The position numbers were made by a program, and so were the translations under genes. From positions 1 through 56,368 of the forward strand of contig JAFTNV010000038.1 of assembly GCA_017451685.1 (NCBI GenBank): a stretch of 56,368 nucleotides of DNA. The letters run 5' to 3'. Under the pieces are notes generated by a model, which saw nothing but the letters and a program-made list of their open reading frames with translations, was not told the DNA's origin and did not search any database. The DNA is from Alistipes sp. (lineage in GTDB: Bacteria; Bacteroidota; Bacteroidia; Bacteroidales; Rikenellaceae). Position 1 is the first letter of the stretch. Each line of letters opens with the position of its first letter. Positions 17,793 through 24,938 of the stretch are shown here, piece after piece.

Positions 17793-17800
17793 TACCTTTG
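17793..17800 (+). promoter_or_regulatory. -7 box for the steroid-type reductase cassette
   Basis: TACCTTTG is a perfect TAnnTTTG match, 93 bases before the start of the 5-alpha-reductase homologue. A TTTG lies at 17777-17780 but only 12 bases away, closer than the usual 19-21, so the -33 box is unclear. Confidence 0.55.
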
Positions 17801-17893: not shown

Positions 17894-18676
17894 ATGTTTT
17901 CGGAGTTGATATCGTTGGAGTGTTACAATACGTTCCTCGTCATCATGGCAGCAGTGGCGCTCGTCGTGTTTGTCGCCCTATACTTCGTCGAGGCGGGATA
18001 TGGCTATCTCTTCAATCCCAAGTTCGGCTTCCCCGTGCCCAACAAGGTGGGATGGGTGTTGATGGAGTGCCCCGTATTCTTCGCCATGGGCATACTTTGG
18101 TGGATGTCGGACTATGCCGTGGAGGCTGCGCCCTTAGCGCTCTTTCTGATGTTCCAGTTGCACTACTTCCAGCGCTCGTTCGTCTTCCCGATGCTCATGC
18201 GCGGAAACTCTAAGATGCCCATAGGCATTGTACTCATGGGTATGGTGTTCAACACGCTGAATGCCGTGATGCAGGGCGGATGGATATTCTACTACGCCCC
18301 CGAGATGGGCTACTACGACGACTGGATGTCGAAGCCCTACTTCTACATCGGTGCGGCGGTCTTTGCCTTCGGCATGATTACGAACGTACACTCCGACTAC
18401 GTCATCCGCAACCTGCGTAAACCTGGCGACACGAAGCACTACATACCCAAGGGTGGCATGTTTAGGTTCGTATCGTCGGCAAACTACTTCGGCGAGTTCA
18501 TGGAGTGGGTGGGCTTCGCCATAGCCTCATGGTCGTGGGCGGGTGTGGTCTTCGCGTGGTGGACATTTGCCAACCTCGGCCCCCGCTCGGCATCGCTCTA
18601 TAAGCGCTACGAGAGGGAGTTTGGCGAGGAGTTTACGGCGCTAAAGCGTAAGCGCATAATACCTTTTATTTACTAA
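17894..18676 (+). CDS. Steroid 5-alpha-reductase family membrane protein (3-oxo-5-alpha-steroid 4-dehydrogenase homologue)
   Basis: A 260-residue polytopic membrane protein, the length of vertebrate SRD5A1/2, with about six or seven hydrophobic segments. The C-terminal NADPH-binding part is very close to the animal enzymes: NVHSDYVIRNLRKPGDT at 164-180, YIPKGGMFRFVSSANYFGEFMEW ending near 205, and a final RYEREFGEEF...KRIIPFIY. Family members reduce the delta4 double bond of 3-oxo-delta4 steroids to the 5-alpha (allo) form. It is followed after 24 bases by an Old Yellow Enzyme-type reductase and then a short-chain dehydrogenase, the gene set reported for allo/iso bile acid formation in gut Bacteroidales. 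The family is clear; the substrate is inferred. Confidence 0.85.
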   Translation: MFSELISLECYNTFLVIMAAVALVVFVALYFVEAGYGYLFNPKFGFPVPNKVGWVLMECPVFFAMGILWWMSDYAVEAAPLALFLMFQLHYFQRSFVFPMLMRGNSKMPIGIVLMGMVFNTLNAVMQGGWIFYYAPEMGYYDDWMSKPYFYIGAAVFAFGMITNVHSDYVIRNLRKPGDTKHYIPKGGMFRFVSSANYFGEFMEWVGFAIASWSWAGVVFAWWTFANLGPRSASLYKRYEREFGEEFTALKRKRIIPFIY

Positions 18677-18700
18677 CGAGAGAGAAAAACCCAATATACG

Positions 18701-19948
18701 ATGGAGAACAAGAAGAGTTTAGAGGAGTCAAAGTTGTTCACTCCCTATAAGATAGGTAGTGTGACACTACGCAATCGCGTGATACGCTCCGCGGCCTTCG
18801 AGTCTATGGGTAAGGACTTTGCGCCCACCCAGAAGCTCAAGGACTACCATGTGAGCGTGGCTAAGGGTGGCGTGGGCATGACCACCGTGGCATACGCCTC
18901 GATAAACCGTAGCGGCATATCGTTCAACAAGCAGCTGTGGCTGCGTGACGAGATTGTGCCGGCGCTCCGTGACCTCACGGATGCCGTACATAAGGAGGGT
19001 GCTGCCGTGGGCATACAGCTCGGTCACTGCGGTAACATGACACACTGGTCGACGGCGGGAAGCTTCCCGGTGTCGGCATCCAACGGATTTAACCTATACT
19101 CTCCCACGTTCCACCGTCGTATGACAAAGGCGGAGATTCGCCAGTTTGCCAAGGACTTCGGCACGGCCGTAGATACGGCATACAACGCGGGCTTCGACTC
19201 TGTGGAGGTGCATGCCGGTCATGGCTACCTCATCTCACAGTTCCTCTCGCCCTACACCAACCATCGTCATGACGAGTATGGCGGCTCGTTGGAGAACCGC
19301 ATGCGCTTTATGAATATGTGCTTGGAGGAGGTGATGGAGGTGGCACGCAAGCGTGGTATGGGTGTCCTCGTTAAGCACAACATGGAGGATGGCTTCAAGC
19401 GTGGTATACAGGTGCCCGAGTCGATAGAGATAGCCAAGCAGATAGAGTCTTTTGGCGTGGATGGCATCGTCCTCTCGTCAGGCTTCGTGTCGAAAGCACC
19501 GATGGCCGTGATGCGTGGCCGCATACCCACAAAGACGATGGGTTACTACATGGGCTGGAACGAGTGGTTGCAGAAGATTGTCGTGTCGCTCTTTGGCCAG
19601 TGGCTCATCAAGCAGTACGACTTCGAGGAGTGTTACTTCCTGGAGAATGCCAAGAAGTTCCGCGCAGCGCTGAAGGGCCCGCTGGTATATGTCGGCGGTC
19701 TGGTGTCGCGCGAGGGCATAGAGCGAGTCCTCGACGAGGGCTTCGAGCTTGTGCAGATGGCGCGCGCGTTGGTCAACGATCCTGCGTTTGTGAATAAGCT
19801 CAAGGAGGGCGACATCACTACGCGCAGTGGCTGCGACCACCGCGACTACTGCATGGCGCGAATGTACTCGGTAGATATGCAGTGCTGTCACAACTGCAAG
19901 GAGCACATCCCCGACCGTCTATGGAGGGAGATTAACTCGATAAAGTAG
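18701..19948 (+). CDS. Old Yellow Enzyme-type NADH:flavin oxidoreductase (candidate steroid/bile acid ene-reductase)
   Basis: A 415-residue FMN-binding TIM-barrel protein. It starts LFTPYKIGSVTLRNRVIRSA, the usual OYE opening, and has GIQLGHCG and HAGHGYLISQFLSPYTNHR (from residue 171), the conserved active-site and dimer region, and VYVGGLVSREGIERVL before the phosphate-binding strand. Unlike BaiCD/BaiH or 2,4-dienoyl-CoA reductase it has no C-terminal FAD/NAD domains. It ends in a cysteine cluster (Cys378, 384, 395, 396, 399) which could bind an Fe-S cluster or zinc. An unusual hydrophobic stretch (GYYMGWNEWLQKIVVSLFGQWL, about 278-299) could touch the membrane. By position it is a candidate 5-beta-reductase; that is inference. 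Confidence 0.82.
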   Translation: MENKKSLEESKLFTPYKIGSVTLRNRVIRSAAFESMGKDFAPTQKLKDYHVSVAKGGVGMTTVAYASINRSGISFNKQLWLRDEIVPALRDLTDAVHKEGAAVGIQLGHCGNMTHWSTAGSFPVSASNGFNLYSPTFHRRMTKAEIRQFAKDFGTAVDTAYNAGFDSVEVHAGHGYLISQFLSPYTNHRHDEYGGSLENRMRFMNMCLEEVMEVARKRGMGVLVKHNMEDGFKRGIQVPESIEIAKQIESFGVDGIVLSSGFVSKAPMAVMRGRIPTKTMGYYMGWNEWLQKIVVSLFGQWLIKQYDFEECYFLENAKKFRAALKGPLVYVGGLVSREGIERVLDEGFELVQMARALVNDPAFVNKLKEGDITTRSGCDHRDYCMARMYSVDMQCCHNCKEHIPDRLWREINSIK

Positions 19949-19957
19949 GTTGCCGCG

Positions 19958-20776
19958 ATGGGACTATGGAATAGAAATAGAGGTGTGGTCAAGCGTGGCT
20001 CGGCATGGGCGTTGGTGACTGGTGCGGCAGTAGGCATCGGCCGTCAGTATGCCGAGCGTCTGGCTATGATGGGCTACAACCTCGTCGTTGTAGATATTCA
20101 GCCCGAGATTGAGACCGAGGCTGTGGCCATAGCCGAACTACATAAGGTTAGGGTTGTGGCGCGATGTATGGATTTGGCACGTGAGGCTGCGGCACACGAG
20201 CTACATGCGTGGACGGTGGCCGAGGGCTGGGAGTTCGATGTCGTTATCAACAATGCGGGCATCTTCTCCTTCTGCGACATACTAAATACGCCCGTGGAGC
20301 GCTTGGAGCGCATACTCCTACTGCACGACGTGACGCTCACGGTCATGTGTCGCCTATATGCCGAGGATATGGTAAAGCGTGGCAAGGGTCGCATCCTTAA
20401 CATGTCGTCATTCTCGATATGGATGCCCTTCCCGGGCTTGGCGTCGTATAGCGCCAGCAAGGCATACGTCAAGAGCTTTACGGAGGCCTTCGCCAAGGAG
20501 CTGCGTGGCACGGGTGTCTCAATAACGGCAATATGTCCTGCGGGCATTGCCACGGATCTATACGGCCTCTCTAAAAGCCTGCAAAAGTTTGGCGTGAAGT
20601 GGGGCATACTTATGAGCCCTGCGAGCTGTGCGCGTCGTGGCCTTAGAGCCATGTTCAAGGGTCGCCGCGTTGTGGTGCCCGACTGGTGGTTTAGGCTGTT
20701 CATCCCCGTGTGTAAATATCTCCCGGGCTTCTTGATACGCCCGTTGCGTAACTTTACGATGCAGTGGCAGAAGTAA
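19958..20776 (+). CDS. Short-chain dehydrogenase/reductase (candidate hydroxysteroid dehydrogenase)
   Basis: A 272-residue classical SDR. The cofactor motif TGAAVGIG is at 21-28, NNAG at 98-101, and the catalytic residues are Ser150 or Ser151, Tyr164 and Lys168 (YSASK). An aspartate at the end of the second beta strand (VVVD) favours NAD(H). The C-terminal tail is longer and more hydrophobic than in soluble SDRs, like the 17-beta-HSD12/ketoreductase group, and may associate with the membrane. It starts 9 bases after the OYE gene. In comparable gut cassettes this position is a 3-beta-hydroxysteroid dehydrogenase; here the specificity is inferred from context. Confidence 0.82.
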   Translation: MGLWNRNRGVVKRGSAWALVTGAAVGIGRQYAERLAMMGYNLVVVDIQPEIETEAVAIAELHKVRVVARCMDLAREAAAHELHAWTVAEGWEFDVVINNAGIFSFCDILNTPVERLERILLLHDVTLTVMCRLYAEDMVKRGKGRILNMSSFSIWMPFPGLASYSASKAYVKSFTEAFAKELRGTGVSITAICPAGIATDLYGLSKSLQKFGVKWGILMSPASCARRGLRAMFKGRRVVVPDWWFRLFIPVCKYLPGFLIRPLRNFTMQWQK

Positions 20777-24424: not shown

Positions 24425-24649
24425 GCAATAGCAGTGCTATTGCGAAGTGGAGCCGATGCCACTTATCGCAGACACCTAAGGTGTCGAGAAATAAACATAT
24501 TTATATCGGCTCAACCCGCAAAAAGTGAGTAATGGCAGTATTTTGAGCCAAGGCGCTTGCGCCTGAGTCTTGTTTTATAATTGCGTAGTGCTTGCACTAA
24601 GGGCAATAATAAAACAAGAACAAGTGACATGTAAGTCACTTGCTCAAAA
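24425..24649. other. Densely structured non-coding region (candidate structured RNA or palindromic element)
   Basis: Pairings seen by eye: hairpin GCAATAGC-AGT-GCTATTGC (24425-24443); hairpin TGCGAAGTGG (24441-24450) with CCACT-TA-TCGCA (24459-24470), whose loop AGCCGAT can pair with ATCGGCT (24505-24511), a candidate pseudoknot; GACACC-TAA-GGTGTC (24471-24485); and a four-way junction closed by TTTTGAG (24541-24547) and CTCAAAA (24643-24649). Its arms are AGGCG-CTTG-CGCCT (24551-24564), TCTTGTTTTAT/ATAAAACAAGA (24568-24578 / 24609-24619) enclosing ATTGC/GCAAT and TAGTG-CTTG-CACTA, and CAAGTGAC/GTCACTTG (24621-24642). Two loops are CUUG closed by G-C, a stable RNA tetraloop on the plus strand. 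No coding gene or promoter is evident inside. Confidence 0.6.
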
Positions 24650-24654
24650 CGCTG

Positions 24655-24729
24655 TCGGGATACCGGGATTCGAACCCGGGACCTCCAACTCCCGAAGCTG
24701 GCGCGCTAACCGGACTGCGCTACATCCCG
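24655..24729 (-). tRNA. tRNA-Pro (anticodon CGG)
   Basis: A complete 75-base cloverleaf on the minus strand. The acceptor stem CGGGATG pairs with the 3' TATCCCG, discriminator A, the anticodon stem CCAGC/GTTGG encloses loop TTCGGGA (anticodon CGG), and the T-arm is CCGGGTTCGAATCCCGG. CCA is not encoded. It lies downstream of tRNA-Pro(TGG), 60 bases apart, probably in one transcript. It decodes CCG. Confidence 0.96.
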
Positions 24730-24789
24730 AACTATTCTTAAACTCCGCTCCACCCTCAATTAGTGTAAAAAGAGCCTCACGGCCCTTTG

Positions 24790-24864
24790 TCGGGATACCA
24801 GGATTCGAACCTGGGACCCCCTGCTCCCAAAGCAGGTGCGCTAACCGGACTGCGCTACATCCCG
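24790..24864 (-). tRNA. tRNA-Pro (anticodon TGG)
   Basis: A 75-base cloverleaf on the minus strand with the same acceptor stem as its neighbour (CGGGATG/TATCCCG), anticodon stem CCTGC/GCAGG, loop TTTGGGA (anticodon TGG) and T-arm CCAGGTTCGAATCCTGG. CCA is not encoded. A perfect promoter lies 25 bases upstream. It reads CCA/CCG and, by wobble, other proline codons. Confidence 0.96.
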
Positions 24865-24888
24865 ATGGGTGGCTTAGAATTCGAGGTG

Positions 24889-24919
24889 CAAAGATAAATA
24901 GAAAAAATCAATATGCAAA
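24889..24919 (-). promoter_or_regulatory. Promoter of the two tRNA-Pro genes
   Basis: On the minus strand TTTG (24916-24919) is followed after 19 bases by TATCTTTG (24889-24896), exact matches to both Bacteroidetes boxes, 25 bases before the first tRNA. Confidence 0.8.
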
Positions 24920-24938
24920 AAAATAGTGCGTTTTTGTT

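Follow-up and report, generated by a model that had tools for sequence, protein, structure and literature searches.

An Alistipes gene trio resembling the 5-alpha-reductase clusters of gut Bacteroidales

A Bacteroidota gene cluster for a steroid 5-alpha-reductase (5AR), a 5-beta-reductase (5BR) and a 3-beta-hydroxysteroid dehydrogenase (3-beta-HSDH) was reportedly described by Li in 2021. Here we compare this cluster with three genes on a stretch of 56,368 nucleotides from Alistipes sp. (GenBank assembly GCA_017451685.1, contig JAFTNV010000038.1, positions 1 to 56,368); the whole stretch is called the window below. The genes encode a membrane 5AR, a flavoprotein of the Old Yellow Enzyme (OYE) type and a short-chain dehydrogenase/reductase (SDR). 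The comparison indicates that this trio is probably the form that the Bacteroidales 5AR-5BR-HSDH cluster takes in the Rikenellaceae (Alistipes), and that its net effect would be to invert C5 in bile acids or host steroids.

According to PMC10382948, the Bacteroidota route leads from a 5-beta 3-oxo bile acid to the 3-oxo-delta4 compound (5BR), then to the 5-alpha form (5AR) and on to the 3-beta-HSDH step; the same indirect route is given in PMC9645264, PMC12916643 and PMC12697870. Disruption of the 5AR gene in Parabacteroides merdae blocked the allo derivatives, and the 5BR role of the flavin enzyme is put forward as a hypothesis (PMC10382948). A 5AR gene was earlier reported in Bacteroidetes isolates from the chicken caecum, with Alistipes isolates in the table (PMC6069880); this report is hard to square with another, in which 5AR is ascribed to Odoribacter and P. 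distasonis (PMC12589954). Clostridioides difficile is inhibited by isoallo bile acids of gut origin (PMC10382948), which have also been reported to promote regulatory T (Treg) cells (PMC11271093). The abundance of microbial 5AR genes is associated with circulating dihydrotestosterone/testosterone (DHT/T) in women (PMC12589954).

Conservation of the gene block

The genes for the SRD5A-type 5AR, the OYE-type reductase and the SDR lie adjacent on one strand. Their open reading frames (ORFs) all start with ATG and are separated by gaps of 24 (5AR-OYE) and 9 bases (OYE-SDR), as an earlier note on this DNA had described. The Pfam matches (Steroid_dh, 6.3e-45; Oxidored_FMN, 1.6e-59; adh_short, 3.5e-39) agree with the families named there, and the strings quoted in it (NVHSDYVIRNLRKPGDT, NYFGEFMEW and YSASK) are all present.

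The three genes had also been expected to occur together in other genomes, which is the case. We examined the best 80 of 203 named relatives, none of these 80 labelled Parabacteroides or Odoribacter; the loci were fetched via 5AR and show what accompanies this gene, not how frequent it is. At 5AR identities of 68-94%, the OYE gene follows the 5AR gene directly in 80/80 loci (gap 5-228 bases; four are contig-cut). An SDR match is found in 76/80; in the four loci without one (L102, L105, L120, L121) the contig breaks off within the OYE gene. Among the 76, the SDR of L104 has only 127 residues and lies 650 bases on, L080 is contig-cut, and the SDR of L106 lies 2.3 kb on. The nearest named relatives are Alistipes metagenome-assembled genomes from the hindgut of yak, sheep, goat, deer, buffalo and cattle, with at most 94% identity in 5AR; the habitat of the source genome is probably the ruminant hindgut.

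Within the genus, 5AR and SDR relatives were each found in 60 of 62 genomes, our own included (the listed misses, G858 and G903, are taken as the only ones). In 59 of the 60, the top-scoring SDR match shares contig and strand with 5AR and follows it 1.2-3.7 kb downstream; G911 has the two on separate contigs. In this genus the trio forms a stable block, and its presence in nearly all sampled genomes, ruminant lineages too, adds to the number of candidate producers. At the family level (150 genomes), 5AR is found at E 1e-60 or better in 96 genomes (82 of the 99 good ones), and an SDR relative at E 1e-40 or better likewise in 96.

The pattern extends to the order. Any 5AR match (E 1e-3) occurs in 109 of 393 Bacteroidales genomes and one of at least 49% identity in 47, while the OYE (E 1e-100 or better) occurs in 57. 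Both are present in 45 genomes, OYE only in 12 and 5AR only in two, so that 45 of the 47 genomes with 5AR also have the OYE. In 40 of the 45 genomes with both, the genes share contig and strand, and in 36 the gap is at most 250 bases. The co-occurrence has a Fisher p of 2e-45 (1e-44 without our own genome), a value that ignores shared ancestry. The order 5AR-OYE-SDR recurs in more distant Bacteroidales of several families (5AR 48-64%): among 29 longer order-search loci with 5AR and OYE, three of them from the same family, 21 have an SDR match no more than 2 kb downstream, some of these being weak (26% in L146; 33% in L145, L148, L149 and L152). The adjacency of the trio is not due to chance. 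In a phylum-wide sample, 17 of 395 genomes had any 5AR match (E 1e-3) and three, our own included, had one of at least 54% identity.

Residues of the three proteins

A phmmer search of the PDB with the window 5AR scored PbSRD5A at 5.7e-54, human SRD5A2 at 3.9e-43 and TECR art-1 at 1.4e-7. For the residue counts we kept sequences covering more than 80% of the query, which gave 120 5AR, 105 OYE and 94 SDR sequences from 120 loci; two distant 5AR sequences (L165, L166) were tallied apart, leaving 118 clade members. The 5AR residues in this paragraph and the next are given in human numbering. The equivalents of catalytic E57 and Y91, both of which SRD5A2 needs for activity (PMC7591894), are present in the window and in 118/118 clade members. 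The window also has the NADPH residues N160, D164, R171, N193, E197, R227 and Y235; in the clade D164, R171, E197, R227 and Y235 occur in 118/118 members, N160 in 117/118 and N193 in 114/118. TECR art-1 has H at the D164 site and W at the R227 site. By score and active-site residues the protein is predicted to be an SRD5A-type steroid 5-alpha-reductase and not a lipid enoyl reductase.

Three positions are changed. H231 is Leu in the window (Leu 90, Ile 25 and Val 3 of the 118), Y178 (Y177 in PbSRD5A) is His, and Met takes the place of Gln56 in the QEY motif, not only in the window but also in all clade members and in the two distant Bacteroidales relatives. The C-terminus of 5AR had been called very animal-like. 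The likeness is there, because bacterial and animal SRD5A proteins share this C-terminus; the proteobacterial PbSRD5A outscores human SRD5A2. In view of these scores a recent gene transfer from animals is unsupported.

The OYE protein gave its top NCBIfam scores with BaiCD (1.9e-56), mycofactocin OYE (6.6e-56) and NamA (2e-50), all under the curated cut-offs. The residues of the catalytic HAGHGY motif are kept (H171, H174 and Y176 in 105/105 relatives, G175 in 101/105). C110, C378, C384 and C395 are invariant in the same 105 sequences, while position 396 is Cys in 74 and His in 27 and position 399 is Cys in 78. After the barrel no second (FAD/NAD) domain was found in the 415 residues, which match one Pfam family; the single-domain OYE with a Cys cluster, pointed out in the earlier note as a detail to check, is a family-wide trait. 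The 4Fe-4S motif of 2,4-dienoyl-CoA reductase is C-x2-C-x3-C-x11-C. The pattern C-x5-C-x10-C of the OYE tail has one Cys fewer and another spacing, and a 4Fe-4S cluster is a possible candidate for this site. C110 was considered as an extra Fe-S ligand and is not claimed as one: it aligns within the QxxHxG strand, which we take to lie at the active site in OYEs.

A segment at OYE residues 278-312 (about 19532-19636 of the window), additional in comparison with YqjM-type OYEs, is rich in hydrophobic residues and variable between families. It could be a membrane-facing element.

The classical SDR tetrad is N-S-Y-K. In the window SDR it reads H123-S151-Y164-K168, with His in place of the classical Asn; S151, Y164 and K168 are present in 94/94 relatives. 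The NCBIfam match that covers most of the protein is mycolate reductase, under its cut-off. The SDR ends in a hydrophobic and basic tail, as would suit a membrane-associated protein. In the tree the SDRs of the Rikenellaceae clusters form their own clade (ten rows, support 100/98). The window SDR is 33-46% identical to 16 other cluster SDRs (one of them, L132, from the same family), and an unlinked paralogue in the same genome is 35-44% identical to those 16; by bit score the window SDR is closer for eight of them and the paralogue for the other eight. The SDR often diverges faster: in L047 the OYE is 94% and the SDR 79% identical.

The unlinked second SDR (G000:C17:1237-1974, L170) is about 40% identical to the cluster SDR and, by reading of its sequence, also has His at the tetrad Asn site. 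Second SDR matches occur in many genomes of the genus as well.

Table 1. Features of the locus in the window
Feature	Position	Strand	Basis
5AR, SRD5A-family membrane steroid 5-alpha-reductase (predicted), 260 aa	17894..18676	+	ORF list, Pfam, PDB search, residue table
OYE-type flavoprotein, 415 aa, candidate 3-oxo-delta4 steroid 5-beta-reductase/dehydrogenase (5BR)	18701..19948	+	ORF list, Pfam, NCBIfam, PDB search
SDR oxidoreductase, 272 aa, candidate 3-hydroxysteroid dehydrogenase, substrate uncertain	19958..20776	+	ORF list, Pfam, alignments, tree
Met57-Glu58 of 5AR, at Gln-Glu of the human QEY motif	18062..18067	+	Met 118/118, Glu 118/118 clade members
Tyr91 of 5AR, catalytic Tyr (human Y91)	18164..18166	+	118/118 clade members
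C378-x5-C384-x10-C395 of OYE, candidate metal or Fe-S site	19832..19885	+	invariant in 105/105 relatives
His123 of SDR, at the tetrad Asn position	20324..20326	+	His 93/94, Gln 1/94 relatives
TACCTTTG, -7-box-like	17793..17800	+	101 bases before the 5AR start; weak

Proposed reactions and alternative readings

The proposed scheme builds on family membership, active-site residues, conserved order and co-occurrence, all of them observed. The OYE protein would interconvert 5-beta 3-oxo steroids, e.g. 3-oxo bile acids, and the 3-oxo-delta4 form, in a direction that we infer. The membrane 5AR would take the 3-oxo-delta4 compound; Glu58 and Tyr91 would polarise the C3 carbonyl, and NADPH would deliver a hydride to the alpha face of C5 to give the flat 3-oxo-5-alpha (allo) product, a reaction presumed from the relatives of this enzyme. 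The SDR may then reduce the 3-oxo group, possibly to the 3-beta-hydroxyl (iso) form, with a presumptive stereochemistry. The net effect would be C5 inversion, with bile acids or host steroids as the presumed substrates. The trio had been proposed to be a cassette for 4-ene reduction. Its match to the known set by family, order and residues holds; the limitation to reduction does not, since the published set is an indirect inversion route. For this reason the OYE protein is thought to run oxidatively too, and C5 ring inversion describes the trio better than 4-ene reduction alone.

Several findings weigh against the proposed function. OYE and SDR score under every curated NCBIfam cut-off shown. 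Twelve of the 57 OYE genomes lack a 5AR of at least 49% identity; ten of the twelve have a distant 5AR (33-41%) on another contig, and G548 has a weak partial match. Genome G679 carries an OYE-SDR pair (L172, 4487-6498) and no 5AR match whatever. Eight of the 29 order-search loci are without a nearby downstream SDR, L134 being contig-cut. G347, from the same genus as G679, has 5AR-OYE without an SDR nearby; because one genome has OYE-SDR without 5AR and the other 5AR-OYE without SDR, the parts of the trio are modular.

The trees, too, do not part SRD5A from TECR. They were built with and without TECR (L015 was omitted, and L016 had no usable ORF). The SRD5A-like rows stand apart from the weak distant matches (L010-L018) with support 100/98, and the gut 5AR proteins group by themselves, with support 97/91 in one tree and 83/86 in the other. 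TECR, represented by one partial row, sits on a long branch at no firm position among the SRD5A-like rows, and in another tree near human SRD5A2. Because the tree does not settle the matter, the distinction between steroid and lipid enoyl reductase, which the earlier note had wanted to draw from grouping, rests better on scores and residues.

The Met at the Gln56 site counts against the assignment as well: human Q56A/L mutants are inactive, and QEY is called highly conserved among the 5-alpha-reductases studied (PMC7815742). We read Met as a clade variant, because reviews report Bacteroidota strains as active; if their enzymes share the Met, QEY is not required of all members, and the variant qualifies the motif as described in PMC7815742.

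The genome also encodes a protein of the choloylglycine-hydrolase family (G000:C32:28847-29764, L171). It would fit exposure to conjugated bile salts and may instead be a penicillin V amidase. Two findings on it add to the counterevidence: it scores slightly better as penicillin V amidase, under the cut-offs of both, and the Pfam family also matches in 4 of 14 control genomes. A survey of dairy cows found Alistipes to be the top genus carrying bile salt hydrolase (BSH), and in the portion of its text searched 5AR was not looked for (PMC9750977).

The last point against the scheme concerns the SDR. A review table lists A. onderdonkii among the 5AR strains that make 3-oxoallolithocholic acid (3-oxoalloLCA) and not among its 3-beta-HSDH strains, which misfits an active 3-beta-HSDH if the strain carries the SDR. 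A second review hypothesises the link between Alistipes and 3-oxoalloLCA and terms it speculative (PMC13233536). With an SDR relative in 60/62 members of the genus, the enzyme may not work as a 3-beta-HSDH under the conditions tested. It is possible, if doubtful, that the Alistipes SDR is no 3-beta-HSDH for 3-oxoallo bile acids at all; the core would then be 5AR and OYE, and the SDR would act at another position, with other stereochemistry or on another substrate. The separate Rikenellaceae clade, the faster divergence in L047, the paralogue that outscores the cluster SDR for 8/16 cluster SDRs and the sole listing of A. onderdonkii as a 3-oxoalloLCA producer speak for this. On the other side, 59 of the 60 genus genomes that have both retain the SDR together with the pair, its S-Y-K residues are intact in 94/94 relatives, and the A. 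onderdonkii listing may reflect growth conditions. The label 3-beta-HSDH, which the earlier note had used for this gene, is not established: by clade, by identity and by the review listing the SDR is the weak link of the trio, its role less certain than the usual label suggests and its step not safely readable from the sequence.

We consider it unlikely that the main substrates of the trio are steroid hormones or dietary sterols instead of bile acids, with testosterone converted to DHT and progesterone to 5-alpha-dihydroprogesterone. In the hindgut, bile acids are probably present in far larger amounts, and this counts against a hormone-directed role; moreover, both uses are compatible with each other. 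PbSRD5A acts on progesterone and human SRD5A2 on testosterone (PMC7591894, PMC7815742), whereas the homologous gene of P. merdae is needed for allo bile acids (PMC10382948).

We give a low probability to a more specific proposal, in which the cassette inverts the ring at C5, its single-domain OYE, with a metal or Fe-S site of unusual Cys spacing, acts as a dehydrogenase that passes electrons to an external carrier, and the His-tetrad SDR yields a product other than the isoallo form in the ruminant hindgut. That the trio serves endogenous lipid metabolism (enoyl or isoprenoid reduction) instead of steroids is most improbable: the breadth of the three families, the mycolate reductase match under its cut-off and the loosely placed TECR row would allow it, but TECR similarity is just 1.4e-7, TECR lacks the D164 and R227 equivalents, and the patchy spread (47/393 Bacteroidales genomes) is unlike core lipid metabolism.

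Surroundings of the locus and known systems

The source genome comprises 1.59 Mb in 43 contigs, is 80.6% complete and has one Steroid_dh gene. Upstream of the trio are histidine-utilisation genes, i.e. urocanase, a HutH-like aromatic amino acid lyase and HutI. The same-strand run extends past the SDR to a DUF748 gene (from 20792) and a gene for an FKBP-type isomerase (from 23345). DUF748 was kept out of the conserved core because a match comes next in only 31 of the 80 named loci; contig ends cut some of the 80 short. An ORF at 24570-24926 with IPGFEPGT repeats is most likely no protein gene, since it lies opposite two tRNA-Pro genes.

The element TACCTTTG upstream of 5AR resembles what we take to be the Bacteroidota -7 promoter box. 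In 67 of 117 relatives the shorter TANNTTTG stands no more than 250 bases upstream, against 12.5% of shuffled upstreams, a comparison in which relatedness is uncontrolled. TTTG-N17-22-TANNTTTG occurs in 11/117 upstreams (0.6% of shuffled ones); in the window it is absent, with no TTTG at the tested -33 spacing.

Viral contigs, scanned with close-relative patterns, yielded no relative, and a plasmid scan matched two records. One is a 140 kb 'plasmid' of Phocaeicola massiliensis (OY726067.1, L168) that carries 5AR-OYE; the SDR-like gene beside them is unrelated (23.5%), and the other neighbours, judged by their first residues, look like central-metabolism genes, so the record may belong to a chromosome. 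The second is a 2.66 Mb Nocardia replicon (34.6%). With no viral relative and only these two plasmid records, the first with probably chromosome-like neighbours, a mobile cassette is unsupported.

Among solved structures the OYE is nearest to the YqjM/NamA class, over residues 11-273 with nothing significant beyond about 273; it differs from that class by an extra segment of about 35-40 residues and by the Cys tail. With BaiCD and C. innocuum ci2350, both 5-beta-reductases, it shares the OYE-type barrel and, as a candidate, the C5 chemistry on 3-oxo-delta4 compounds. BaiCD-type enzymes carry C-terminal domains of their own, whereas the Alistipes OYE does not: it has 415 residues against 642 positions of the BaiCD model, with the best match over 3-257. 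The specificity residues N166 and S171 of ci2350 (PMC12238238) correspond to Gly175 and Gln180 by reading of the HGYLxxxF motif; that paper mentions neither Bacteroid-, Parabacteroides nor Alistipes.

With human SRD5A2 (7bw1) and PbSRD5A (7c83) the Alistipes 5AR shares the catalytic Glu and Tyr, most NADPH residues and the C-terminal half. The clade differs from both in the Met at the QEY Gln (118/118), the Leu, Ile or Val at H231 (118/118) and the His at Y178 (116/118). The closest system is the Bacteroidota 5AR/5BR/3-beta-HSDH cluster of P. merdae and relatives, known from reviews, which is like the trio in its three clustered families and its occurrence in gut Bacteroidales; the Alistipes SDR has 33-46% identity to the 16 other cluster SDRs. 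This kind of cluster is already known, and the Alistipes trio is an ordinary member of it with family-wide sequence oddities.

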